From a virus: DNA of 47,660 bases. The notes below the pieces were generated by a model that did not search any database, was not told where the DNA came from, and worked only from the letters and a program-made list of their open reading frames with translations. Both the position numbers and the translations under genes were made by a program. Positions 11,779 to 34,838 of the stretch are shown in pieces. The stretch is taken from positions 1 to 47,660 of IMG/VR virus record IMGVR_UViG_3300035698_017218. One strand, 5' to 3'. Every line of letters starts with the position of its first letter. Position 1 is the stretch's first letter.

Positions 11779-14700
11779 ATGGGAATACTGACCGGAAAAA
11801 AGCGAACAACCAAAGAAATTTATGATAATTTAATACAACCAACCGAATACCAACCAGTAGCGGATCGTGTCGGGCATCCGGCACTACAGCCAGATTTACC
11901 ATATTCTGACCCTTTGAAACCAAAAAAGAGTTACGTTGATACTTTGCTTGAAGAAGCCGGGCAATCGGTACGTCCTGATCCTCCGGGGCCACAAGAACAA
12001 CCTACCCGGGAAGATCAAGCATTTGATCCCGAAGGTATCGAGTATGATTATGAAAGTGCAATAAAAGCTGGATTGGAAGCAGACGAGACACAACATTGGG
12101 AAAGTAGAGTACCAGAAACAGGTCTTTTATTAAAGGGGCGTAATCACGATACTTGGAACAAAACAGTTGAAGCCGAAAAAATACGTGGGAATAAGATCAT
12201 TAAACGTGATGGTCGATATTATTCATTAGAACCAGACCAATTTCAATCAGAAGAAGTTGCTCTCCAAAAACCTGAACTTTATCCGGAATACAGTAAGCGC
12301 CGGAAAGAAGGGCTCTCGCACGAAGCTGCTATAAATGTGGCGCAAACAGGATTCAAAGGTTTTGGTGGTGGAAAGCCATCAGAGAAGGGTGTTAGTGGGG
12401 AATTCGATTACGATGTCACTGGTAGGTATGATCGCAGAGAAAATGTTTTAAAAGAAATTGGTAACTTGAAAAAACAGGTAGAAACGGTTAATCAAAATTA
12501 TGCAAAGAATCAACCTGTATTTGATCTTAACCAGGTCTATCAACAAAAGTTCGAAGACTTTAATGATGTAATCGTTGATGATAAATTCACAGGTACGGAA
12601 TCCGACTATAATCGTTATAAAAAATTATCTGATGAATATTCCAGATTTGTTGAAAAAAACAAATCAATTTTCGACCAGTTCGGAGATGAAGTTACTAATC
12701 AACAACAGCAAGACATTGAACGGTACAACGAATTGTTGTCAGAATATGGAACATTGGAATATGATAAACAACAAGAAGAGCGAGGTGCATTAGGAAATTT
12801 AAAAGAAAGTTTTAAAGGAGGTCTTGAAAGTGCCAGTATTGATATGATGTTTTACGATTCAATGATGGGAGGAATTAACCCAGACGTTGCATTGAAAATA
12901 AAAGCTGAATATGAACGGAGATTACAGGCAAACCCGATTGATGCTAATAATTGGCTTGAATCTCTTGCAAATGCTACAGCCGAGATGGTAGGTCCTATGT
13001 CCGAAGGTATTCGTGAGGGTATGGGAATAGGATTGGGAGCTGCTGGCGCAGCAATAATTGCAGGACAAGCAGGGCCTCAGGCGTTATTGCCAGAAGAATT
13101 AATAACAGCACCCATTGCTTATGCAGCAGGTACAGCAGCCGGGGCTGGTTTGTATTGGTATAAACAGGGTTCTGGCAATATGTATGCTGCCTTATTAGAA
13201 GAAGGTGTTGATGAAGATGTTGCAAAACCTGTGGCAATGGCAGCCGGTATACCTTATGCTGTGTTAGAATTTTTGCAAGTAGGGAAAATTGCTAAAAAAG
13301 TTTTCAAGATAAACAAAGTTCCGGAGAAGGTAATAGCCAACACTGTAGCCAAAGTTATATTTAAAGTTGGAAAAAAATTAGGGAAAAATGTATTCAGAGA
13401 AACCAGCGAAGAACTCTTACAAGAAATTACCCAAATTGCATCTGATGAAATCGGAAAAGAATTAAATAATCAGTTAAAAGGAACTGAATTAGCGCATGTA
13501 AAAACAGACGATGCAATTCAGCGTGTATTTAAAACAGGGCAAGGAGCAATAGGACCTCTTTCTGTACTCTTGATTCCTGGTCATGCTGCTAACATGATAA
13601 CGTCCGTTAGAGGTGTGAATAAATTTAATAATGAAATTGGAAAAATAGCTACTGGATTAGGAATCGAAAAAAAGAATGCGTTAAATATTTCTCAAAAAAT
13701 TATCACTGATATTAATAATGGCGAAGATACTCAAAGATCGATTGCGAAAAGGTTTTCAGAGTTTGTAGTCTCAGAACAATCAAAAGATATTAAAGAACCG
13801 GTTGAGCCAACAGAAAAACCACCGGTTGAACAGCCGGACGTTGAACCAGAAATTTCTCCGTCAGAGATGGAAACAATAGAATCCGAAGTAGAGAAACTAA
13901 AAGAAACAGATCCCGAACTTTATAAACAGCGTAAGGAAGAATTAGAGCAAGTTAAGAAACTTGAAAAGGAAGCATCTGAGACAGAAAAACCAATAGAAGC
14001 CACAGAGAAGCCACAGGAAGCACCAGAATCAACGATCTCCGTAAAGCCGACCGTTATTACTAAAGATGAAAAAAAGGTTGGTGTGAAAGCTCCTGTTGAG
14101 AGAAAAAAACTCGGTAAAAACAAAGTTACAATTCCGGACAAAGAGAAGCTAACTTTCGAATCAGAAATGGGAAATTTGGAATCTGGACAAATTATTCCGG
14201 GTGGATTGAGACAAGTAACGCATCTTGGCGAAAAAGGTGTTCCTGAAAAAGTAGTTGTGGGAAGATTTAACACAGCATCCACTAATCCTGAATGGTATAG
14301 AGAATCCGGGTTATTACAAGAGTACGGTAAAAAACGAATATTGAATGTAATGAACAAAGCTCTTGCCGGTGAATCTTTGACAGATAAACAAGTTGAGATT
14401 TACGATGATGTTCGTAACGCTTTATCAGAATACGAATTCAAATTATCTCAAACAGTTGCTGTAATGCCGGAAGCAGAGAAAATTGAAACGAAAGAAGATT
14501 TGGCAAAAACTATCGAACCATCTGTTTCGGAAACCAAGCCATTTAAAACATCGGAAGTAAAGGGAGAGAAAGAAACTGTATTTTATGACGATTTGAAAGA
14601 GGGCGATACTTTTACAATTAATGGTGAAGATTTTAAGGTAACAGATAAAACCAAAAGACAGATGACGGTTAAGGATGGGGTTACTTACCAATTAGAGCCG

Positions 14701-17700
14701 GACTTCTCTCCTCTGGATATTGACAAGGGTTCGTTGGGGAAGGAAGAGGTGAAGCCCGACAGTAAAGAACGTTTTGTTGAACCTACCAAAACGATAGAGA
14801 CAAAAACAGTTGATGAACATAACAAATATTTTGGTTTAGCAAGAAACAAAGTTGATGGTTTGACTGTAAGAGATAAAATTCCAAATCAATCATCTATCAG
14901 TGCATCATTAACGGAATACGAGATACTTGATGGTGTAAGAGAGGTACCTTTATCTTTGTTTGATGAATCTCCTCCTGATGTAAATACGAAAACAAGTTCT
15001 TTGGCAGATGAAATAAGCGAAAGTGGTGAAATCAATCCTTTAATCGTTGTTGTGGATAATGAAGGGCTATATGTTCTTGAAGGTGCAAATCGTTTTGATG
15101 CTATGAAAATACGCGGTGCTAAATCAATTCCAGCAATGGTAGTATTAGATAGTGATGCAATCAAAACAAAAAAACCAGAAATAAAAACAGAGAAAACCGA
15201 AGCTGGCGACCAGGTAACTTTCAAACCGGCAGCCGAATTGCCAAAGGGCAAAAAGAAATTGAAACCCGGACAGAAGAAACTTACCCGGCAGGAAGGTGGA
15301 TTGTTTGAAGTTGAGAAACCGAAGGGTAAGCAGGAAGGGTTGTTTGCGCCAAAGCAAAAGAAACTCACCCGCAAAGAATTAGAGCGCGCTGATAAGGGTG
15401 GAAAGGTTGTTGAGCGACCGGTTGAGAAAGAAAAGTTAGAAAGACCATTTGTAAATGATGGTAATAAATTAGTTGTCAAAGAAATTGGAGATTACAAAAT
15501 ATCAGTTGATGATGTAAACGATGCTACTCATATTGTTTTATGGAAAGATGTTGAAGTAAAAGGCAAAAGATTCGATAAAAAAGTAGGAACTTTTGGTATT
15601 ACCAAAACAGAAGATAAGTTTTTAAAAGTTACAGGAATTGATATTGACAAAACAGAAAGGGGACAAGATTTTGCCAAAAAGATGTATGAAGTTGCATTAC
15701 AATATTCTCATAAAGACATAAAAGGGATTAAGTCTTATCTTCCAAACAGGGTAAATAAATTACAAATTCCAAAAATATATAAACGTCTTGGTGCAGTAGA
15801 AATAGATGATTACCAATATATCTATAAAGAAGGCACACCAAAGAAAACTCTTAAGAAAAAACAGGAAGTACCTAATCTAAATGAAGACTTTGATGTAAAT
15901 GAACAAAAAATACATCTGGGGACTGATTTAGGAAGAAAAGGTACCGAACTTTATCATATTCAATCACTGGGTAATGGAAAAGACATTAATTTCTACATCA
16001 AAGCGAAAGATAAAGCAGCGTTACAAGCAGAAATTTATAAACTTCCAGTTAAGTTAAATGATTACACTACATTGATAACAAGGGATAGATTCCCGACCGA
16101 AATGATGAAAGACCCTGATAATTATGGTGGTTATGGTTATCGTAATTATCAAGGCAATAAAAATATTTATTATAAAGAAAATAAAAAATCTGATATTCCT
16201 GGTGATGTTGAAAAAGCAACGCCTACCACGGACATTGATGCCGGGATCAAAAAGGGTGAAAAAATAGATGATTTTGGTGAAAAAATTGGTGGAGCAAGGA
16301 AAGACCTTGATGTCAAAAAAGGCAAGAAACTTGGAAAACAAATTGCTGGATGGAAGAAAAAATACTCTATCCTGAAAAACAAAGAGGGTACATTTAATCT
16401 TGTGAAAATAAGTAAGTCAAGATTTGGTGGTTTCACAACCATTAAAACAGGGCTTGCTACGGAAAAAGAAGCCGAAGATTTGATGCCTTTAGCTGAAGTT
16501 AGTTCTAAACATCGTGTTAGTTTGGGTAGAAAAAAAGATGATAATAAGTATTATATCTACCGAGTTATTGATGGGAGATATGTTAAGCTGATTGATGTGC
16601 CATTCGATACTGAAAAAGATGGCATGACGTACATGGCTAAGAATGCCGAAGAAGTTATTAATAAAAAATTTCAGTTTCCGGTAAGACCACATCTTGATAA
16701 AATCGAACGCACCGGCAAGCAGCAAAGAACCGGTGACGTGTCGCCACAACAATTCCAGGAAACATTTGGTTTCCGTGGTGTTGAGTTCGGAAATTGGTTG
16801 CCAAATGATGAGCGCCAGGGCGTGTTGAATTTCGCTTACGATGGATTGCTTGATCTCGCTAACTTACTGAACGTTCCTCCTAAAGCATTAACCTTGAATG
16901 GTGATCTTGCGGCTGCATTTGGATCAAGGGGAAGTGGTTTAATTAGCGCTGCTGCACATTATGAACCAACAAAAGCTGTCTTTAATCTTACCAGGATAAA
17001 CGGTGCGGGATCTCTGGCGCATGAATGGTTTCACGCACTGGATAATTACATTGGGAAACTTAGTGCCGGTTCATTAGATAAGCGTACAGAGATATATGCG
17101 ACTGAACATTACCTTGGAACTAAATCAAGAAAAGAATTACGTGACGCTTTTGAAAATGTTATAAATACCACTCGTAGAAAAAAGGTGATGCAGGAAGCTG
17201 ATCTTGATAGAGAAAGGAAAATATTTGAGTATTCCGGAAAATCTTTAGAAGAAAAATTATCAGTTATAAAAAGAGACTTGGAGCAAGATTACTCTGATTA
17301 CTCATATAAAAAACGACACATAAAACCAGCATCTAAAGAACAGATTGAAAAATTCGATAAACTGGCTGAAAAAATACGTAAAGGTGATATTGGTGAAAAG
17401 GTATGGGTGAAGACACCACTAAAACGGTACTCTCAGGGATTTTATACTTATAAACCGATCCAGGACATATCTGAAATTTATAAAGCAGTACGTGGCAGGA
17501 CAGGGTTCGCAGAACATGGAGTTCTTGGCAGCTTAAATCTTCAACTTAATGGTTTTATCAATGCCAAACAGCGTTGGGAGAATATTCAAAAAGCGCCGGT
17601 TGAAGAAAAGACCGTCCGAACCAACTTCCAAACTGAAGCACTTGAAGTGGATAAAATGCGCGCATCTCCATATTGGAGCAGATTAAGGGAAATGGGAGCC

Positions 17701-20700
17701 AGGGCATTCGAAGCGTATGTTCAGGACAAGGTAGAAGAATCGGGAGATAAGAGTCAATACCTTGTTTATGGTGCGGAGAATAAATATTATGCTTTATTGG
17801 GATTGAAGCCCTACCCGGAAACATCTGAACGAAAAGAGATTAATAAAGCGTTTGATGAGCTATTTAAAACAATCAAGACTAAAGAAACAGATAAGGGTGT
17901 TGAGTTTTATCAATACAAACGCAAGATCCCCAAAAACGAACGTTTCCATAGAGACGCTGCAGAACTTCTTTCACAGGCAGTAAAGGGAATTGAAGTAGTA
18001 ACTGATCAGAAAGCGTTTGATGAGATCAGGGAGAAGCGTGGACATCGGCAAGATACGGTTGGTATTTATGTTTCCAGTGAGAAAAAGATTTACGTGAATC
18101 CGAAACTGGCAACCAAAGATACGGTATTCCATGAGTTCGCTCATCCGGTAATTAATCATGTCAAAGAATCCGATCCAAAATTATATCAACAGGGTATTGA
18201 TTTAATCAAGGGCACGAAGTACGATAAAGAAGCCAGTGAGTTAGGGTACACCGATCCGTTAGACGAAGGGTTGGTACAGGCTATTGGTGAAAAAGGTGCT
18301 CAGATCCACGATACAGCGCAACGGAACAAGTTTATTCAGTGGTTAAAGAAATTCTGGATTCGGATTAACCGCGCATTCAAGAAGCTGTTTGGATTCAATA
18401 CTTCTCTTGATGATTTTACTACGATGTTTGCCAATGAGATGTTGAGTGGTAGGGAGATATTGGATGTTGGGACCGGGAAAGGTAGAAAACTAAGGCGCCA
18501 AGAGTCCAGATTAGCCCCGGTTTTCTACTCTCATGCCGAACGGGTTGTTTTGGATAAATTCCCGAACAAAATGGGTGCGCCATCTGTAAATAACTGGTTA
18601 GCGAAACAACAGGTGAAGCCGGAAGAATTGGAATGGCTGGATATTGAGTCACTGACTGCCAGGAAGTTAAGTATTACCAAACAAGAGTTGCTGGATTGGA
18701 TTGCGGGGAATAGGGTGCAGGTTGAGGAAGTTACGAAAAAAGAGAGACAGGAATATGGTATTCCTGATTATACATCTGAAGATCATGCACGATTACGAAA
18801 ATTGTTAAAAGAAGATGACTATTTAGGCTTTGATTCTTCTAATGCCGCCAAACAAGCGATATTAGAACATCCTGATTGGACAGACAGATGGGATGTATCC
18901 AATTCTGAACTTATAGAATTGGGGAATAAATATAGAAATTCTGTTGCGGATCATCAAACAAAAAAAGCCAAATACTCCGAACAACAACTCTCCGGTGGTG
19001 AGAATTATAGAGAAGTGTTGTTGACGTTGCCGATTAAAGAAACGCTGCCAACTGGAATTACAAGAGATGCACAGGGAAAATTAAGAGATTCAACAGGTGC
19101 AATTACTATCCAAGAAGAAGTACAAAAATTCATGCCAGAGCAAGGTTACAAATCCACCCACTGGGAAGAACCCAACGTATTAGCTCACGTCCGGTTTAAT
19201 GAACGTGTTGATGAAGATGGCAATAAAGTTCTATTCATCGAAGAGATCCAATCAGATTGGCACCAGGCGGGGAAGGAGAAGGGGTATAAAAGTCAAGAAA
19301 TCATCGTGTCTGCCGAAAAAAAATCAGAAATTGCAAGAAGTGACTTGAAAAACTTTAGAAAAGAAAACAATCTTACAGTGTATGAAATGGCTTATGGCCC
19401 AGAAAGCCCAGGATTAAAAACTGAATGGGAAAGATTGAGAAACAAGGTAGCTGATACGGATAGTGAATTGAATAAAATTAAGACGGAGATGATCCCCAAC
19501 GCTCCCTTCAAGTCCGAAAAAGCCTGGTCGCTATTGGTAATGAAACGCATGATTCGCTGGGGTGCGGAGAATGGATTTGATAAGGTTGCGTGGACGACTG
19601 GTTCGCAGCAGGTGGATCGGTATGAAAGCAGCTTCAGAAGGTCAGTTGACAATATTAAATGGGATGTATATAAAGATAACTACAAGTCATACCCTGATAT
19701 GAGAGAAGCAAAGGCTTATAAAAATGGTAAACTTATATTTCATGGCACTATTGATAAAGATGGAAAAGTTATTGATGCAGACATGGGAGAAGCAATCGGC
19801 AGATCATTGTCAGAAGTATTTGGTAAGAAGATAGCAACCGAGGTAATGAAAGAGCCGGTTGGTGATGTAAAAGGCGATGATCTTACTATCGGCGGTGAAG
19901 GGATGATAGAATTTTATGATCGCAAGCTGCCGGGTTATGTGGATAAGTTTATTAAGAAGTTTGGGAGTAGGGTTGAGAAAACTTCTCTCCAGGCAAAAGA
20001 CGAAGTGGATATTGATGTCCACTCCTTCCCCATCACCGACCAAATGCGTGAAGTAGCATTGGGGCAAGGGTTTGCTCAATTCCAATTCCTCGGTAAAAAA
20101 GCCCGCACTGCCGATAAATCTTTACGTACAAAAGCGCAGCAGATGGAAAAACATGCGGCCAAGTTGGAAGGTAAGAAAAAAGAAGATGCCCTGGATAATA
20201 TCAGAAAAGAAACCGGCTGGTTCCGGGGATTAGATGATCAGTGGCGGTTTGAGATTGATGATAGCCAGATGGACATAAAGTTTGACGAAATGTTTGTTAA
20301 TAAAGACGAGCAGGTCAAAGGTGATATCGCTCATATTTCCGGGTTTAATTTAGGTGATTTCATTAAGCATGATGAATTGTTTCAGGCTTACCCGGAACTC
20401 AAAACGCATACAGTTAATTTTTTAATTCATCCGCATAATAATAATACAGGTTCGTATATGCCTGCTATGCCGATGACGGAAAATACTACAATATCGCCAG
20501 ATTTACAGATACAAGCAACCAGTAAAGAAACGTTACGTGATATTCTTCTGCATGAGTTGCAACATGCGGTCCAGGAGATTGAAGGATTTGCTCGGGGTGG
20601 AAATCTTCAATCGGTTGCCAATATGAGCGAGAGACAGACAGATGACAAATTAACTGCCGAAATAACTGATTTGTCTAATACTATAAAAGAATATACTGAA

Positions 20701-23352
20701 TTAAGAGATCGTACCACCAATTTGGATGATTTGGAACGACTTCAAAATGAGATAGTCTCTGCGAGAACAAAATTATCTAAAGCAAAAAAAGAGTACATTG
20801 ATTTTGAAAAAGGTATTTTAGACAAATACCACCGTCTCGCCGGAGAGATAGAAGCCAGGGACACTGGCTTATTCAGATCTGACTTAACTGCAGAACAAAG
20901 GTTGTTGCAAAAGCCTTACCTTGAAGTTGATGTTATTGGAAAAAAGAATGTGATTGTGAGTTATGGTGGTGATGGAACGGCGAAGTTCCAAATTGCACCC
21001 AGTACGCCAACTGAGGAACGTCCGAAAGTGCCATCTCTATATGAAAAGAAAAAAGATGATTGGTTCGGGAATAAGGAGTGGGCTGCTGCAAAAGCAACTG
21101 TTGAAGCAAATAAATTTGAAAAAAGAATACAAGACTCAATCAGTGATAAGCCTAAATTTTTCAACGGCAATAGAAAACGTTGGACACAGCCATTAAAACT
21201 GGAATGGGAACAGGAATGGCAGGATATGGCGAGAACTATTAATGTTTATATTGACATGAAGCGTAACCCGGATCACGCTGAAAAGTATTATGATGATTTG
21301 GCAGAGGATAAACAAAAAATCATTGATTCTGCACAGAATCTAAATACCGAACAAATTTCAATCGCTAATGATATACAGAGTTCTTATAAAAAAATTGGAG
21401 TGGAAGCTCTGGAAGCTGGTGTAATTCATAATTTTGTAGAAAACTATGTCAAACGTAAATGGAATTTTAAGGATCAGGAACAAAGAGATGAGTTTCATCG
21501 AAAATTCGGAACGTCCACAAGCCATGCGAAACATCGGACACTGGATACTATTATCGAAGGTTGGGCAAGAGGGTTTGAGTTAGCGATTGAAAGCGCTACA
21601 AATAACCTGCAAACCTATAAAGTAGAGATCGAAAATACAATTGAGGATAAGAAACTCATCCAGGAAGCGATGAAAATAAAAGACAAAGATGGAGATAAAT
21701 TATTTTCATTCAAGAATCAATCAGGCTATGCTCAAATAAATCATCCAAATTTTACGTGGTGGAGCTATTCTGGAACGTTAGAGACCGATCCGGAAGCGGA
21801 AATATTAACCAAGAAGGATAGAGACCTTATTATCACACCAGAGGGTACAATCCTTAAACGGAAACGAATTTATGCACCGAAAAAGATAGCAGATAACCTG
21901 AATAATGTTTTAGGTACATCTACTTTGATGGGAGAAAGCGGATTTAAAAAGACAGTTGCAGAAGTAACTCATTACAATGCAGCAATCAAGGCAATGATCC
22001 TGCAAACAAGTTTTTTCCATCATCTTGCATTTACTAACTCCTTTGTACTTGGCGGTGCTTTAGAAAGCCTTAAAGATGTTAATGTTGTTAAATCTTATAA
22101 AAAAGGTCTGAAAGCATTTGAAGAATTAGGACCAGAAGTTGAATTGTTGATTAGGAATGGGCTAACTATCGGACGGATGCAAGATTTTATTGAAAATTTT
22201 GCACGTCAACAAACAGGGCTCACAAAAATATTAGACAAAACAATGGCAACTAAAGCCATAAAAGAAAAAATTATACTATTTCAGGAAAAACAAGCACGAT
22301 CATTGTTTCAACGATATGGCGCCGGGTTAAAAGTTTATACTGCTTTATTAGAATATAGGAGAATGTTAAAGCATAACCCAACAATGGAGCCAAACGAAAG
22401 AGCTAAAATAGTTGCGAATCTTACCAATGATGATTTTGGTGGCCTTCATCTTGGCAGACTTGGTAGAGACCCAACAGCACAGCATGTTTTTAGATTATTT
22501 GCTTTAGCGCCTGATTGGACTGAATCAAATGTGAGATCAATGGTAAAAGCCATCAAAGCTGGTTCTAAAGAAGAAACAAAATTATACCGAAGGCTTTGGC
22601 GTAGAGTTGTAGTAAGAGGAATGGGATTAACTATTGCAGCTAATTTATTGTTGGCTTTATGGGATGAAGACGATGATGATAAAAATTATAAGGATGCTGT
22701 GTTGAGACGGTATAGAACGGCATGGGATAAAGGCTATCTAAAATGGATGGATGTTGACATAACTCCTGTTTATCGTGCTTTAGGTGGTGACAAAGACAAC
22801 AAATCTTACTTTTCATTAATTGGACATTTTAGAGATCCTATTAAATTTGTTCTTCATCCAATAACATCTGCACAACACAAAGGCAGTGTGTTTTTTAGAA
22901 TAATGTTTGAGACACTAAAGGGAACTGACTGGCGTGGCAGACCATTTACTACGTGGGATGAATTATTTGGGCTGGACGCTGAAAAATGGAGTCCTAATTA
23001 TAAAGGTGTCTATAAAATAAGTAACCGGAAAATAGGATACCGAACAGGTGATCCAAAAGGTGGTAAACTAAAGGGAAGTTTAACTAAATCGAAATATCAG
23101 GGCAGGGGAGGCCCTATAAGCTACGAAAAGATACCGTCATGGATGCTACATGAGATTCGCCAAATGACACCCATCCAGGTACAAAATTTCATTGGCTACT
23201 TAACTGGCGAACTGGATGGTATTGAAGCCATTGGCAAGTCCATGGGGCTACGCATGACAGTTAGCGAACCATATCCTAAAAAAGAAGAAAAGAAAAAGCC
23301 AATAGCACAACCACAAAAAAGACGTAAACTAAAACGAAAGCGGATTAAATGA
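11779..23352 (+). CDS. Giant phage polyvalent protein (3857 aa) with ParB-like, GNAT-like, three zincin-type and LPD38-type regions
   Basis: One uninterrupted frame, about a quarter of the window. In order: charged N-terminal region; Gly/Ala-rich hydrophobic segments at about 404-461; Pro/Glu linker near 675-780; ParB/sulfiredoxin-like domain at about 1075-1124 (NPLIVV, LEGANRFDAMKIRGAKSIPAM); GNAT-like region at about 1243-1351; LPD1-type domain with HEWFH at 1748-1752; second zincin HEFAH at 2118-2122; block with EEIQSDWHQ at 2488 and AWTTGSQQVDRY near 2605, then GGEGMIEFYDRKLP; third zincin HELQH at 2925-2929; C-terminal LPD38-type helical region with RLFALAPDWTESN near 3571. Such polyvalent proteins are thought to be injected with phage DNA and to disarm host defences (Iyer and colleagues' concept). 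The Shine-Dalgarno AAGG precedes the ATG by five bases. Individual activities are inferred from motifs. Confidence 0.85.
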   Translation: MGILTGKKRTTKEIYDNLIQPTEYQPVADRVGHPALQPDLPYSDPLKPKKSYVDTLLEEAGQSVRPDPPGPQEQPTREDQAFDPEGIEYDYESAIKAGLEADETQHWESRVPETGLLLKGRNHDTWNKTVEAEKIRGNKIIKRDGRYYSLEPDQFQSEEVALQKPELYPEYSKRRKEGLSHEAAINVAQTGFKGFGGGKPSEKGVSGEFDYDVTGRYDRRENVLKEIGNLKKQVETVNQNYAKNQPVFDLNQVYQQKFEDFNDVIVDDKFTGTESDYNRYKKLSDEYSRFVEKNKSIFDQFGDEVTNQQQQDIERYNELLSEYGTLEYDKQQEERGALGNLKESFKGGLESASIDMMFYDSMMGGINPDVALKIKAEYERRLQANPIDANNWLESLANATAEMVGPMSEGIREGMGIGLGAAGAAIIAGQAGPQALLPEELITAPIAYAAGTAAGAGLYWYKQGSGNMYAALLEEGVDEDVAKPVAMAAGIPYAVLEFLQVGKIAKKVFKINKVPEKVIANTVAKVIFKVGKKLGKNVFRETSEELLQEITQIASDEIGKELNNQLKGTELAHVKTDDAIQRVFKTGQGAIGPLSVLLIPGHAANMITSVRGVNKFNNEIGKIATGLGIEKKNALNISQKIITDINNGEDTQRSIAKRFSEFVVSEQSKDIKEPVEPTEKPPVEQPDVEPEISPSEMETIESEVEKLKETDPELYKQRKEELEQVKKLEKEASETEKPIEATEKPQEAPESTISVKPTVITKDEKKVGVKAPVERKKLGKNKVTIPDKEKLTFESEMGNLESGQIIPGGLRQVTHLGEKGVPEKVVVGRFNTASTNPEWYRESGLLQEYGKKRILNVMNKALAGESLTDKQVEIYDDVRNALSEYEFKLSQTVAVMPEAEKIETKEDLAKTIEPSVSETKPFKTSEVKGEKETVFYDDLKEGDTFTINGEDFKVTDKTKRQMTVKDGVTYQLEPDFSPLDIDKGSLGKEEVKPDSKERFVEPTKTIETKTVDEHNKYFGLARNKVDGLTVRDKIPNQSSISASLTEYEILDGVREVPLSLFDESPPDVNTKTSSLADEISESGEINPLIVVVDNEGLYVLEGANRFDAMKIRGAKSIPAMVVLDSDAIKTKKPEIKTEKTEAGDQVTFKPAAELPKGKKKLKPGQKKLTRQEGGLFEVEKPKGKQEGLFAPKQKKLTRKELERADKGGKVVERPVEKEKLERPFVNDGNKLVVKEIGDYKISVDDVNDATHIVLWKDVEVKGKRFDKKVGTFGITKTEDKFLKVTGIDIDKTERGQDFAKKMYEVALQYSHKDIKGIKSYLPNRVNKLQIPKIYKRLGAVEIDDYQYIYKEGTPKKTLKKKQEVPNLNEDFDVNEQKIHLGTDLGRKGTELYHIQSLGNGKDINFYIKAKDKAALQAEIYKLPVKLNDYTTLITRDRFPTEMMKDPDNYGGYGYRNYQGNKNIYYKENKKSDIPGDVEKATPTTDIDAGIKKGEKIDDFGEKIGGARKDLDVKKGKKLGKQIAGWKKKYSILKNKEGTFNLVKISKSRFGGFTTIKTGLATEKEAEDLMPLAEVSSKHRVSLGRKKDDNKYYIYRVIDGRYVKLIDVPFDTEKDGMTYMAKNAEEVINKKFQFPVRPHLDKIERTGKQQRTGDVSPQQFQETFGFRGVEFGNWLPNDERQGVLNFAYDGLLDLANLLNVPPKALTLNGDLAAAFGSRGSGLISAAAHYEPTKAVFNLTRINGAGSLAHEWFHALDNYIGKLSAGSLDKRTEIYATEHYLGTKSRKELRDAFENVINTTRRKKVMQEADLDRERKIFEYSGKSLEEKLSVIKRDLEQDYSDYSYKKRHIKPASKEQIEKFDKLAEKIRKGDIGEKVWVKTPLKRYSQGFYTYKPIQDISEIYKAVRGRTGFAEHGVLGSLNLQLNGFINAKQRWENIQKAPVEEKTVRTNFQTEALEVDKMRASPYWSRLREMGARAFEAYVQDKVEESGDKSQYLVYGAENKYYALLGLKPYPETSERKEINKAFDELFKTIKTKETDKGVEFYQYKRKIPKNERFHRDAAELLSQAVKGIEVVTDQKAFDEIREKRGHRQDTVGIYVSSEKKIYVNPKLATKDTVFHEFAHPVINHVKESDPKLYQQGIDLIKGTKYDKEASELGYTDPLDEGLVQAIGEKGAQIHDTAQRNKFIQWLKKFWIRINRAFKKLFGFNTSLDDFTTMFANEMLSGREILDVGTGKGRKLRRQESRLAPVFYSHAERVVLDKFPNKMGAPSVNNWLAKQQVKPEELEWLDIESLTARKLSITKQELLDWIAGNRVQVEEVTKKERQEYGIPDYTSEDHARLRKLLKEDDYLGFDSSNAAKQAILEHPDWTDRWDVSNSELIELGNKYRNSVADHQTKKAKYSEQQLSGGENYREVLLTLPIKETLPTGITRDAQGKLRDSTGAITIQEEVQKFMPEQGYKSTHWEEPNVLAHVRFNERVDEDGNKVLFIEEIQSDWHQAGKEKGYKSQEIIVSAEKKSEIARSDLKNFRKENNLTVYEMAYGPESPGLKTEWERLRNKVADTDSELNKIKTEMIPNAPFKSEKAWSLLVMKRMIRWGAENGFDKVAWTTGSQQVDRYESSFRRSVDNIKWDVYKDNYKSYPDMREAKAYKNGKLIFHGTIDKDGKVIDADMGEAIGRSLSEVFGKKIATEVMKEPVGDVKGDDLTIGGEGMIEFYDRKLPGYVDKFIKKFGSRVEKTSLQAKDEVDIDVHSFPITDQMREVALGQGFAQFQFLGKKARTADKSLRTKAQQMEKHAAKLEGKKKEDALDNIRKETGWFRGLDDQWRFEIDDSQMDIKFDEMFVNKDEQVKGDIAHISGFNLGDFIKHDELFQAYPELKTHTVNFLIHPHNNNTGSYMPAMPMTENTTISPDLQIQATSKETLRDILLHELQHAVQEIEGFARGGNLQSVANMSERQTDDKLTAEITDLSNTIKEYTELRDRTTNLDDLERLQNEIVSARTKLSKAKKEYIDFEKGILDKYHRLAGEIEARDTGLFRSDLTAEQRLLQKPYLEVDVIGKKNVIVSYGGDGTAKFQIAPSTPTEERPKVPSLYEKKKDDWFGNKEWAAAKATVEANKFEKRIQDSISDKPKFFNGNRKRWTQPLKLEWEQEWQDMARTINVYIDMKRNPDHAEKYYDDLAEDKQKIIDSAQNLNTEQISIANDIQSSYKKIGVEALEAGVIHNFVENYVKRKWNFKDQEQRDEFHRKFGTSTSHAKHRTLDTIIEGWARGFELAIESATNNLQTYKVEIENTIEDKKLIQEAMKIKDKDGDKLFSFKNQSGYAQINHPNFTWWSYSGTLETDPEAEILTKKDRDLIITPEGTILKRKRIYAPKKIADNLNNVLGTSTLMGESGFKKTVAEVTHYNAAIKAMILQTSFFHHLAFTNSFVLGGALESLKDVNVVKSYKKGLKAFEELGPEVELLIRNGLTIGRMQDFIENFARQQTGLTKILDKTMATKAIKEKIILFQEKQARSLFQRYGAGLKVYTALLEYRRMLKHNPTMEPNERAKIVANLTNDDFGGLHLGRLGRDPTAQHVFRLFALAPDWTESNVRSMVKAIKAGSKEETKLYRRLWRRVVVRGMGLTIAANLLLALWDEDDDDKNYKDAVLRRYRTAWDKGYLKWMDVDITPVYRALGGDKDNKSYFSLIGHFRDPIKFVLHPITSAQHKGSVFFRIMFETLKGTDWRGRPFTTWDELFGLDAEKWSPNYKGVYKISNRKIGYRTGDPKGGKLKGSLTKSKYQGRGGPISYEKIPSWMLHEIRQMTPIQVQNFIGYLTGELDGIEAIGKSMGLRMTVSEPYPKKEEKKKPIAQPQKRRKLKRKRIK

Positions 23353-33424: not shown

Positions 33425-33972
33425 TGAATCAGATGAATAACGATATCCAAACCCTAAAATCTAAAATATCAATGATTGATCTTATGCGGAAACTCGGATT
33501 CCGGGATTTCAACAAAACTCATGCACGCTGCATCCTACATGCTGATGGTAAAACGATGTCATTCTCCTTTAATGAAGACTTCTTTCATTGTTTTGGATGT
33601 AACGCAAAGGGTGACAAGATAGGGTTGGTCAAAAATGCTCTGTGCGTTGATTTTAAGGGCGCTGTTGAGTTCTTGTCGAAAGAGACGGGGTTTTACCCTA
33701 ATGTAAAACTAAATAGCTCTAAAATAGATCATAAGAAAAATATGAGAGATCTTATTGCCGTACAAAAAGACTCTGATAAGAATTTTGAGTTACAATACAT
33801 TATCGACAAGATGGAAGAAATTGATAGGCTCCGGAGAATTTGGACAAATGCAATTATAAAGATAAAAAAAAGTGGCGGGTACTTTGACTTGGCAGAAGCA
33901 CACTTAAATAACCTGGATGAGCAGTACGGATTTTTAAAATACCAGAGGAGTCAGTTTTGGGCGAAGATGTAG
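33421..33972 (+). CDS. CHC2 zinc-finger primase-like protein without a catalytic domain
   Basis: 183 residues. Cys37-x2-His40 (CILH) and Cys57-x2-Cys60 (CFGC) form the CHC2 zinc site of DnaG-type primases, with the usual context FNEDFFHCFGCNAKGDKIGLV. There is no TOPRIM domain. The rest is helical (about 100-183). It could load or recruit a separate primase, or work with the ATPase at 35276. The first ATG overlaps the previous stop. It overlaps the methyltransferase gene by 16 bases. Confidence 0.8.
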   Translation: MMNQMNNDIQTLKSKISMIDLMRKLGFRDFNKTHARCILHADGKTMSFSFNEDFFHCFGCNAKGDKIGLVKNALCVDFKGAVEFLSKETGFYPNVKLNSSKIDHKKNMRDLIAVQKDSDKNFELQYIIDKMEEIDRLRRIWTNAIIKIKKSGGYFDLAEAHLNNLDEQYGFLKYQRSQFWAKM

Positions 33973-34838
33973 TTCGAATGCTTGATCTGTTCTCCGGGAT
34001 CGGTGGATTCTCGCTTGCGGCTACACAGATATGGAAAAAACAACTTGAAATAATGGGTTTCTGTGAAAATGATAAATACTGCCAGAAAGTATTGCAAAAA
34101 AATTTTCCAGGCATACCTGTTTTTAATGATATAAAGGAGTTAGATGGAACACAATTCAAAACAATTGACCTTGTTACCGGCGGCTTCCCTTGCCAGCCTT
34201 TCAGTATCGCCGGGAAGCGAAGAGGCAAGGAAGATGACCGTGCAATCTGGCCGGAAATGTTTCGCATTATTAAAGAAACAAAACCACGTTGGGTTGTTGG
34301 CGAAAATGTTACTGGCATCATCAACATGGAACTCGACCAGGTGCTTTCTGACCTGGAAAGTGAAAGCTACGAAACACAAACGTTTATTATTCCAGCTTGC
34401 GGAGTTGGTGCGCCACACAGGAGAAAACGAGTATGGATTGTTGCCCAATCACAGCATCCCGACACCAACAGCATCGGATTACATAGACAGAAAATCAAAC
34501 AGCAAAGAGAAACAAAATTTCCAGACAAACAAATCAGTGGGACTAAAAGATTTTGTGAAAATGTGGCCGACACCACGATTGGCGGTACGAATGTTTCCAA
34601 CGCCAACAAGTTCAATGGTGACAAATCAAGATTTCGAGCAAGCGAAATATCACAGCTCAAAGCGTCCGGAATATCAAAATTGCAAAACTGGCTCCCTGAA
34701 CCCAACGTGGGTCGAGTGGCTAATGGGATTCCCAATAGGGTGGACAGACTTAAAGCACTCGGAAACGCAATAGTGCCGCAAGTAGCTATGGAAATATTTG
34801 CGGCTATGAAAGAAGTAGATAATTTAATGAAGGAGTAA
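33957..34838 (+). CDS. C5-cytosine DNA methyltransferase (Dcm-type)
   Basis: 293 residues from a TTG start with AGAGGAG seven bases upstream; an ATG at 33978 is the alternative. Motif I is LDLFSGIGGFSLA; motif IV GFPCQPFS with catalytic Cys79; motif VI E116-N-V; motif VIII PHRRKRVWIVA; motif X G269-N-A-I-V-P. The target-recognition region (about 170-250) is short. It methylates cytosine at C5 in an unknown site and no restriction partner is present, so protection against host restriction is likely. Most of the gene (34144-34773) is overlapped by a second ORF in the +1 frame. Confidence 0.92.
   Translation: MGEDVVRMLDLFSGIGGFSLAATQIWKKQLEIMGFCENDKYCQKVLQKNFPGIPVFNDIKELDGTQFKTIDLVTGGFPCQPFSIAGKRRGKEDDRAIWPEMFRIIKETKPRWVVGENVTGIINMELDQVLSDLESESYETQTFIIPACGVGAPHRRKRVWIVAQSQHPDTNSIGLHRQKIKQQRETKFPDKQISGTKRFCENVADTTIGGTNVSNANKFNGDKSRFRASEISQLKASGISKLQNWLPEPNVGRVANGIPNRVDRLKALGNAIVPQVAMEIFAAMKEVDNLMKE
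34144..34773 (+). CDS. Overlapping +1-frame ORF inside the methyltransferase gene
   Basis: 209 residues, wholly nested in the C5 methyltransferase in another frame. It has its own Shine-Dalgarno AAAGGAG (34133-34139) four bases before ATG. The product is not random in appearance: ASSTWNSTRCFLTWKVKATK and RLLFQLAELVRHTGE, then PTPTASD and WPTPR motifs, then LNPTWVEWLMGFPIGWTDL at 185-203. I recall this Trp-rich ending and the PTPTA motif from phage and metagenome proteins encoded near or over Dcm genes; this is not verified by search. Possible role: accessory to methylation. Alternatively a conserved shadow of the methyltransferase codons. Confidence 0.55.
   Translation: MEHNSKQLTLLPAASLASLSVSPGSEEARKMTVQSGRKCFALLKKQNHVGLLAKMLLASSTWNSTRCFLTWKVKATKHKRLLFQLAELVRHTGENEYGLLPNHSIPTPTASDYIDRKSNSKEKQNFQTNKSVGLKDFVKMWPTPRLAVRMFPTPTSSMVTNQDFEQAKYHSSKRPEYQNCKTGSLNPTWVEWLMGFPIGWTDLKHSETQ

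Follow-up and report, generated by a model that had tools for sequence, protein, structure and literature searches.

The C5-cytosine methyltransferase gene analyzed here contains, entirely within its borders, a second gene in another reading frame. This gene specifies a real, conserved protein, and the dual coding is itself conserved among related loci; that the second frame is translated is inferred. We refer to the products of the main frame and the +1 frame as alpha and beta, respectively. The locus is likely to encode a two-polypeptide C5-methyltransferase resembling M.EcoHK31I, an interpretation that does not rest on any data on expression or methylation, on binding experiments or on proteomics.

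A methyltransferase gene with a nested gene in the +1 frame

The window, i.e., the whole stretch of DNA that was analyzed, comprises positions 1 to 47,660 of IMG/VR virus record IMGVR_UViG_3300035698_017218 (47,660 nucleotides), and is AT-rich (37% GC). Alpha and beta share one stretch of this DNA, beta being wholly nested in alpha. Alpha starts at a TTG codon (33957) behind the sequence GAGGAG, with the ATG at 33978 as an alternative. Due to the +1 geometry of the overlap, position 1 of each alpha codon is the wobble position of a beta codon, and alpha position 3 is the second position in beta. The features, with their supporting evidence in brackets, are as follows.

33957..34838, + strand: alpha, C5-cytosine methyltransferase ORF, 293 aa (PF00145, TIGR00675, PHROG 363)
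33984..34007, + strand: alpha motif I, DLFSGIGG, SAM-binding (sequence)
34133..34139, + strand: beta Shine-Dalgarno sequence AAAGGAG, with a 4-nt spacer to the ATG (sequence; enrichment of Shine-Dalgarno-preceded starts in homologues)
34144..34773, + strand: beta, nested +1-frame gene with ATG start, 209 aa plus stop (PHROG 1008; conservation across loci)
34179..34205, + strand: alpha motif IV, GGFPCQPFS, with the catalytic Cys (sequence; invariant columns in alignment A1)
34302..34310, + strand: alpha motif VI, ENV (alignment A1; sequence)
34342..34398, + strand: beta conserved hairpin CFLTWKVKATKHKRLLFQL (structure model: two predicted strands at about residues 68-88, block pLDDT 84-93)
34377..34442, + strand: alpha region closing with motif VIII, QTFIIPACGVGAPHRRKRVWIV (alignment; sequence)
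34443..34757, + strand: alpha segment between motifs VIII and X, without motif IX (pLDDT, hhalign, substitution phase)
34456..34563, + strand: beta xPTP module 1, IPTPTASDYIDRKS...KSVGLKDFVKM (near-identical type in other loci)
34564..34593, + strand: beta xPTP module 2, short, WPTPRLAVRM (sequence; module inventory)
34594..34695, + strand: beta xPTP module 3, FPTPTSSMVTNQDFEQ...KTGS (sequence; module inventory)
34696..34752, + strand: beta motif IX-like end, LNPTWVEWLMGFPIGWTDL (longest invariant block, alignment A2)
34758..34784, + strand: alpha motif X, LGNAIVPQV (alignment; sequence)

An initial annotation, made from the sequence alone, had reported an open +1 frame at 34144-34773 whose ATG follows AAAGGAG at a distance of four bases, and catalytic motifs together with GNAIVP in the main frame. 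The former held exactly, and the latter was also confirmed.

Alpha matches the profiles PF00145 (3e-50), TIGR00675 (1.2e-40) and PHROG 363 (5.5e-79), and its AlphaFold2 model resembles the catalytic fold of M.HhaI (Foldseek E 3.8e-14, 164 columns). Beta has no match in Pfam, NCBIfam or the PDB sequences; a search with beta matches 102 phage records. Residues 4-204 of its 209 residues match PHROG 1008, named 'DNA methyltransferase', directly (E=1e-27), yet beta lacks the catalytic motifs I-VIII, and the name of this family was probably inherited from the overlapping gene.

The alpha/beta pair is conserved in phages and prophages

We assembled 166 related loci from viral and bacterial contigs, most of which were found through beta. 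Alpha and beta are present in the identical frame relation in all 166. To control for ascertainment, loci were also retrieved by alpha patterns only (PCQPxSxAG, LGNAVVP), and the second frame showed similarity to beta in 80 out of 80 of these. The pairing also occurs in E. coli prophages and in Rhodobacter and Salmonella phages, and the BASEL E. coli phages Bas70 and Bas79 carry the locus. Of 300 Bacillota genomes, only 4 contained beta, which overlapped alpha in each, and a standalone beta without an overlapping alpha was not found in any locus examined.

Two observations concern individual loci. A Roseovarius MAG contains five near-identical alpha/beta copies on one chromosome (L108-L112), which suggests repeated prophages or an assembly effect. 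In locus L259 (KT997847), a frameshift in an A-rich stretch at about 1255-1500, either a sequencing error or real, breaks alpha, and the N-terminus of the broken alpha is in the same frame as the intact beta.

The second frame is depleted of stop codons and has its own start signal

Synonymous codons were permuted such that the alpha protein and its codon pool were kept, and stop codons were then counted in the +1 and +2 frames. For the gene of the window itself, the shuffled sequences contained on average 4.3 stops in the +1 frame, and only 0.5% of the shuffles contained none. For 88 dereplicated loci, a single +1 stop was seen versus 311.6 expected, while the +2 control frame contained 1100 stops versus 1117 expected. 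The 80 loci retrieved by alpha alone gave a similar picture: 11 stops in the +1 frame, all near the ends of the beta frames, versus 298 expected, and 1113 versus 1105 in the +2 frame. Further clades, fetched with the methyltransferases of the E. coli phage K1H and the mycobacteriophage Rhynn, contained 0 stops versus 166 and 0 versus 30 expected, respectively. Methyltransferases sampled from Bacillota, analyzed on both strands as a control, showed no overall depletion (299 stops versus 310 expected); two members of the alpha/beta family among them had 0 stops each. Chance or codon bias is thus ruled out by the protein-preserving shuffles, the +2 frame and the ordinary methyltransferases. Likewise, the loci retrieved by alpha only and the two further clades rule out an ascertainment bias caused by the beta-based search.

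The beta start is also marked by a conserved signal. An in-frame start preceded by a Shine-Dalgarno sequence with at least 5 matching bases is present at this position in 58% of the 88 loci, versus 10% for control windows of equal size inside beta; for at least 6 bases, these values are 31% and 1%.

Selection acts on both frames, and mainly on beta between motifs VIII and X

At fourfold sites of conserved alpha residues, the mean entropy is 0.87 bits inside the overlap versus 1.90 (of a maximum of 2) outside it, and it falls to 0.10-0.53 bits across most of the motif IX segment. Before the overlap, substitution rates at alpha positions 1/2/3 amount to 0.15/0.11/0.47, and after it to 0.08/0.02/0.53, in both cases the pattern of a single gene. 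The rates for motifs IV-VIII are 0.25/0.16/0.34, showing that both frames are constrained there. Between motifs VIII and IX they become 0.34/0.13/0.11, and over motif IX 0.28/0.09/0.12; in these regions, therefore, constraint falls on beta, and changes in alpha are tolerated. Indeed, the alpha segment 34443..34757 changes fastest at alpha codon position 1, where beta has its wobble position.

The rates derive from ungapped HSPs of 60-93% identity, with borders set by motif patterns, and the pairs share ancestry. The sign of the flip was kept each time when independent pairs were resampled (100 of 100), and the pattern persists in the alpha-ascertained loci alone. The K1H clade shows this flip in the motif IX region as well, and its variable region is roughly balanced.

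Motif IX is absent from alpha, and beta ends with a motif IX-like segment

Alpha keeps motifs I-VIII and X, and does not contain motif IX. A regular-expression search for motif IX in the alpha frame of 80 loci found none, and the motif IX-like pattern was found in the +1 frame of 66 of those 80; ordinary Bacillota methyltransferases, serving as a control, do show motif IX. When alpha was compared with ordinary C5-methyltransferases by hhalign, the similarity spanned motifs I-VIII and then stopped (E 3e-41). The segment at 34443..34757 is modeled with low confidence by AlphaFold2 (pLDDT mostly 34-60). From this comparison and the model prediction, the stretch between motifs VIII and X resembles a flexible linker.

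The C-terminal pattern that is invariant among beta homologues is LNPxWVEWLMGFPxGWT. Motif IX of ordinary methyltransferases reads LTxRECARxxGFPD, and the end of beta resembles it. In the window, this end, LNPTWVEWLMGFPIGWTDL, stops just short of alpha motif X (34758). The assignment is by likeness and position; the best hhalign match of beta to ordinary methyltransferases did fall on motif IX (11 columns), and at E 0.11 it is not significant and no more than suggestive.

These results bear on the remaining claims of the initial annotation. It had placed the end of the second frame over DNA encoding motifs IX-X of the methyltransferase, which held in part: motif IX is missing from the main frame, and LNPTWVEWLMGFPIGWTDL is itself the motif IX-like element. 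Its suggestion that the dual coding recurs in phages is strongly supported by the stop tests, the fourfold sites and the rates. Homologues with frequent second-frame stops or without purifying selection, which it had named as refuting evidence, were absent from every homologue set. The role it offered for beta, a methylation accessory, is the best-supported function, as the second frame holds the motif IX-like piece missing from the methyltransferase (compare M.EcoHK31I). The idea of an overlooked gene held partly: a few records annotate an internal gene (phage Diva gp50, 'g49 internal gene'; K1H ORF28, 'Mte8-like protein'), and most do not.

Beta contains a variable number of xPTP modules

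Modeled alone, beta gives a poor structure (mean pLDDT 62, pTM 0.25), the exception being the hairpin LTWKxKxTxxxRLLFQL. This prediction is compatible with the possibility that beta folds only alongside a partner, and does not prove it. Between the hairpin and the motif IX-like end, each beta contains 1-5 xPTP segments, and segments of the same type turn up at differing ordinal positions across loci. For instance, 13 loci contain the PTPTAxDxKNSxLPPSQ module, located at positions 1/3, 2/2, 3/3, 3/4 and 5/5. The recurrence of these modules suggests swappable recognition units; that they determine DNA specificity is an inference. An additional placement for such units was observed in L041 (363-700), where xPTP modules are located upstream of the conserved beta core.

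Comparison with known methyltransferases

M.EcoHK31I is a bacterial C5-methyltransferase made up of two polypeptides that recognizes YGGCCR (Lee et al. 1995, cited in PMC3404938). Its large subunit carries motifs I-VIII and X, and its small one motif IX (PMC3404938). The gene of its beta polypeptide is reported to be nested in that of alpha in another frame, with both polypeptides being required (Lee et al. 1995). M.EaeI is similar to M.EcoHK31I. The locus studied here shares with M.EcoHK31I an alpha with motifs I-VIII and X and without IX, and a beta that is fully nested in another frame. This likeness is one of architecture and is drawn by analogy. A search for an EcoHK31I-like E. coli locus by means of K1H alpha gave only prophage-type matches in the regions opened. 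Unlike M.EcoHK31I, the present gene is a phage gene that, as far as seen, is not part of a restriction-modification pair, and its beta has a variable number of swappable modules. In addition, the target-recognition domain of M.EcoHK31I was predicted, not measured, to lie in the large subunit (PMC3404938), whereas here selection between motifs VIII and X falls on beta, an observation that argues against alpha containing a recognition domain; structural or specificity data are lacking.

M.AquI (CYCGRG) is another C5-methyltransferase that naturally consists of two polypeptides (PMC3404938). It is split within the variable region, such that motifs IX and X are both on the small subunit. In our case, the genes are nested and motif X stays in the alpha frame, which rules out an M.AquI-type split.

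In multispecific phage C5-methyltransferases, such as those of SPbeta and phi3T, the region between motifs VIII and IX holds recognition segments of modular construction. In these enzymes, modules and catalytic motifs form one chain in one frame, whereas in our locus it is mainly the nested frame that encodes the modules. The ShiLan element, an HNH endonuclease inserted out of frame in an actinophage methylase (PMC11855218), resembles our case in that a phage methylase gene contains the code for another protein in a different frame. That element is a homing insertion in some alleles, whereas beta is a constitutive overlap with methyltransferase motifs. As a separate observation, the methyltransferase of L024 is interrupted upstream of motif IV by an insert of about 590 bases (133-723) that keeps the reading frame. 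The insert contains an HNH-like zinc-binding sequence (CEKCNYTGTF...SHHSDYNKPLEVDWFCQKCHH), has no Rfam intron match, and recalls the ShiLan insertion.

The split architecture is thus already known; the phage-wide spread and the shuffled dual-coded modules appear to be undescribed in the literature searched. An alpha/beta overlap in phages was not described in the papers that we found.

A two-polypeptide model and its alternatives

According to the model that we favor, alpha is the catalytic domain, with motif I, the PCQ motif IV, ENV, and motifs VIII and X, as shown by sequence and fold. Beta would be translated from its own Shine-Dalgarno sequence and ATG in the +1 frame; the signal is conserved and the translation inferred. 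Beta would supply the motif IX segment, and its xPTP modules probably form the target-recognition surface. Alpha and beta may then join on DNA to yield an active enzyme, as reported for M.EcoHK31I. With both subunits translated from one stretch of mRNA, their genetic linkage would be maintained, and perhaps their ratio as well. For the phage, the putative methylation may mark its DNA against host restriction.

A bolder reading holds that beta is the target-recognition subunit and that its xPTP modules are interchangeable recognition units, shuffled among phages with both frames remaining open. This could as well prove wrong as right, and we consider it because of the 1-5 modules per beta, their varied ordinal positions, the placement in L041 and the selection acting mainly on beta. 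Taken together with its extension, a dual-coded, modular and possibly multispecific methylation system spread across phages and prophages, we would not lean either way.

Of the alternatives, the one that survives best is that beta is translated and is an independent phage protein, e.g., with an anti-restriction or regulatory function, overprinted on the methyltransferase gene. In its favor, beta has no match in Pfam, NCBIfam or the sequences of the PDB, and the analysis holds no evidence of an interaction between alpha and beta. We consider it unlikely, since beta was never seen without an overlapping alpha in the loci examined, always accompanies an alpha of the same clade, and carries a segment resembling precisely the motif missing from alpha; M.EcoHK31I, moreover, provides a precedent for split methyltransferase subunits.

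Less probable still is that ribosomes shift to the +1 frame within alpha, producing a fusion of alpha (motifs I-VIII) with beta (recognition region and motif IX) and no separate beta. A shift near motif VIII would give the usual motif order through IX, but the fusion product would lack motif X, and both the openness of the second frame and the constraint on it reach far upstream, as far as its own ATG, for which a Shine-Dalgarno sequence is enriched.

Finally, the view that the second frame is untranslated and its conservation a by-product of alpha residues, base composition or codon usage, to which the dictation of part of LNPTWVEWLMGFPIGW by overlapping alpha residues (e.g., Gly codons forcing Gly) lends some support, is all but excluded and is refuted as an account of the whole pattern, because alpha-preserving shuffles give about 300 stops versus the 1-11 seen, the +2 frame is undepleted, fourfold sites are frozen only within the overlap, and the fastest codon position flips.

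Implications for phage methyltransferases

A large clade of phage C5-methyltransferases is annotated as one protein though the DNA encodes two. Alpha cloned and expressed as annotated may be a dead enzyme, and specificity predictions based on alpha would search the wrong frame. The same-strand dual coding is unusually long and deep, extending over about 200 codons in hundreds of divergent loci, with the dominant frame changing internally. Modular recognition by the nested gene is testable in the E. coli phages Bas70 and Bas79.

Other genes in the window

Two further genes of the window were observed. The ORF at 11779-23352 encodes 3857 aa, occupies a quarter of the record, and contains the polyvalent-protein domains LPD1 and LPD23. 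The gene at 831-2066 encodes a protein with DUF285 repeats of the Mycoplasma type (E 2.3e-57).
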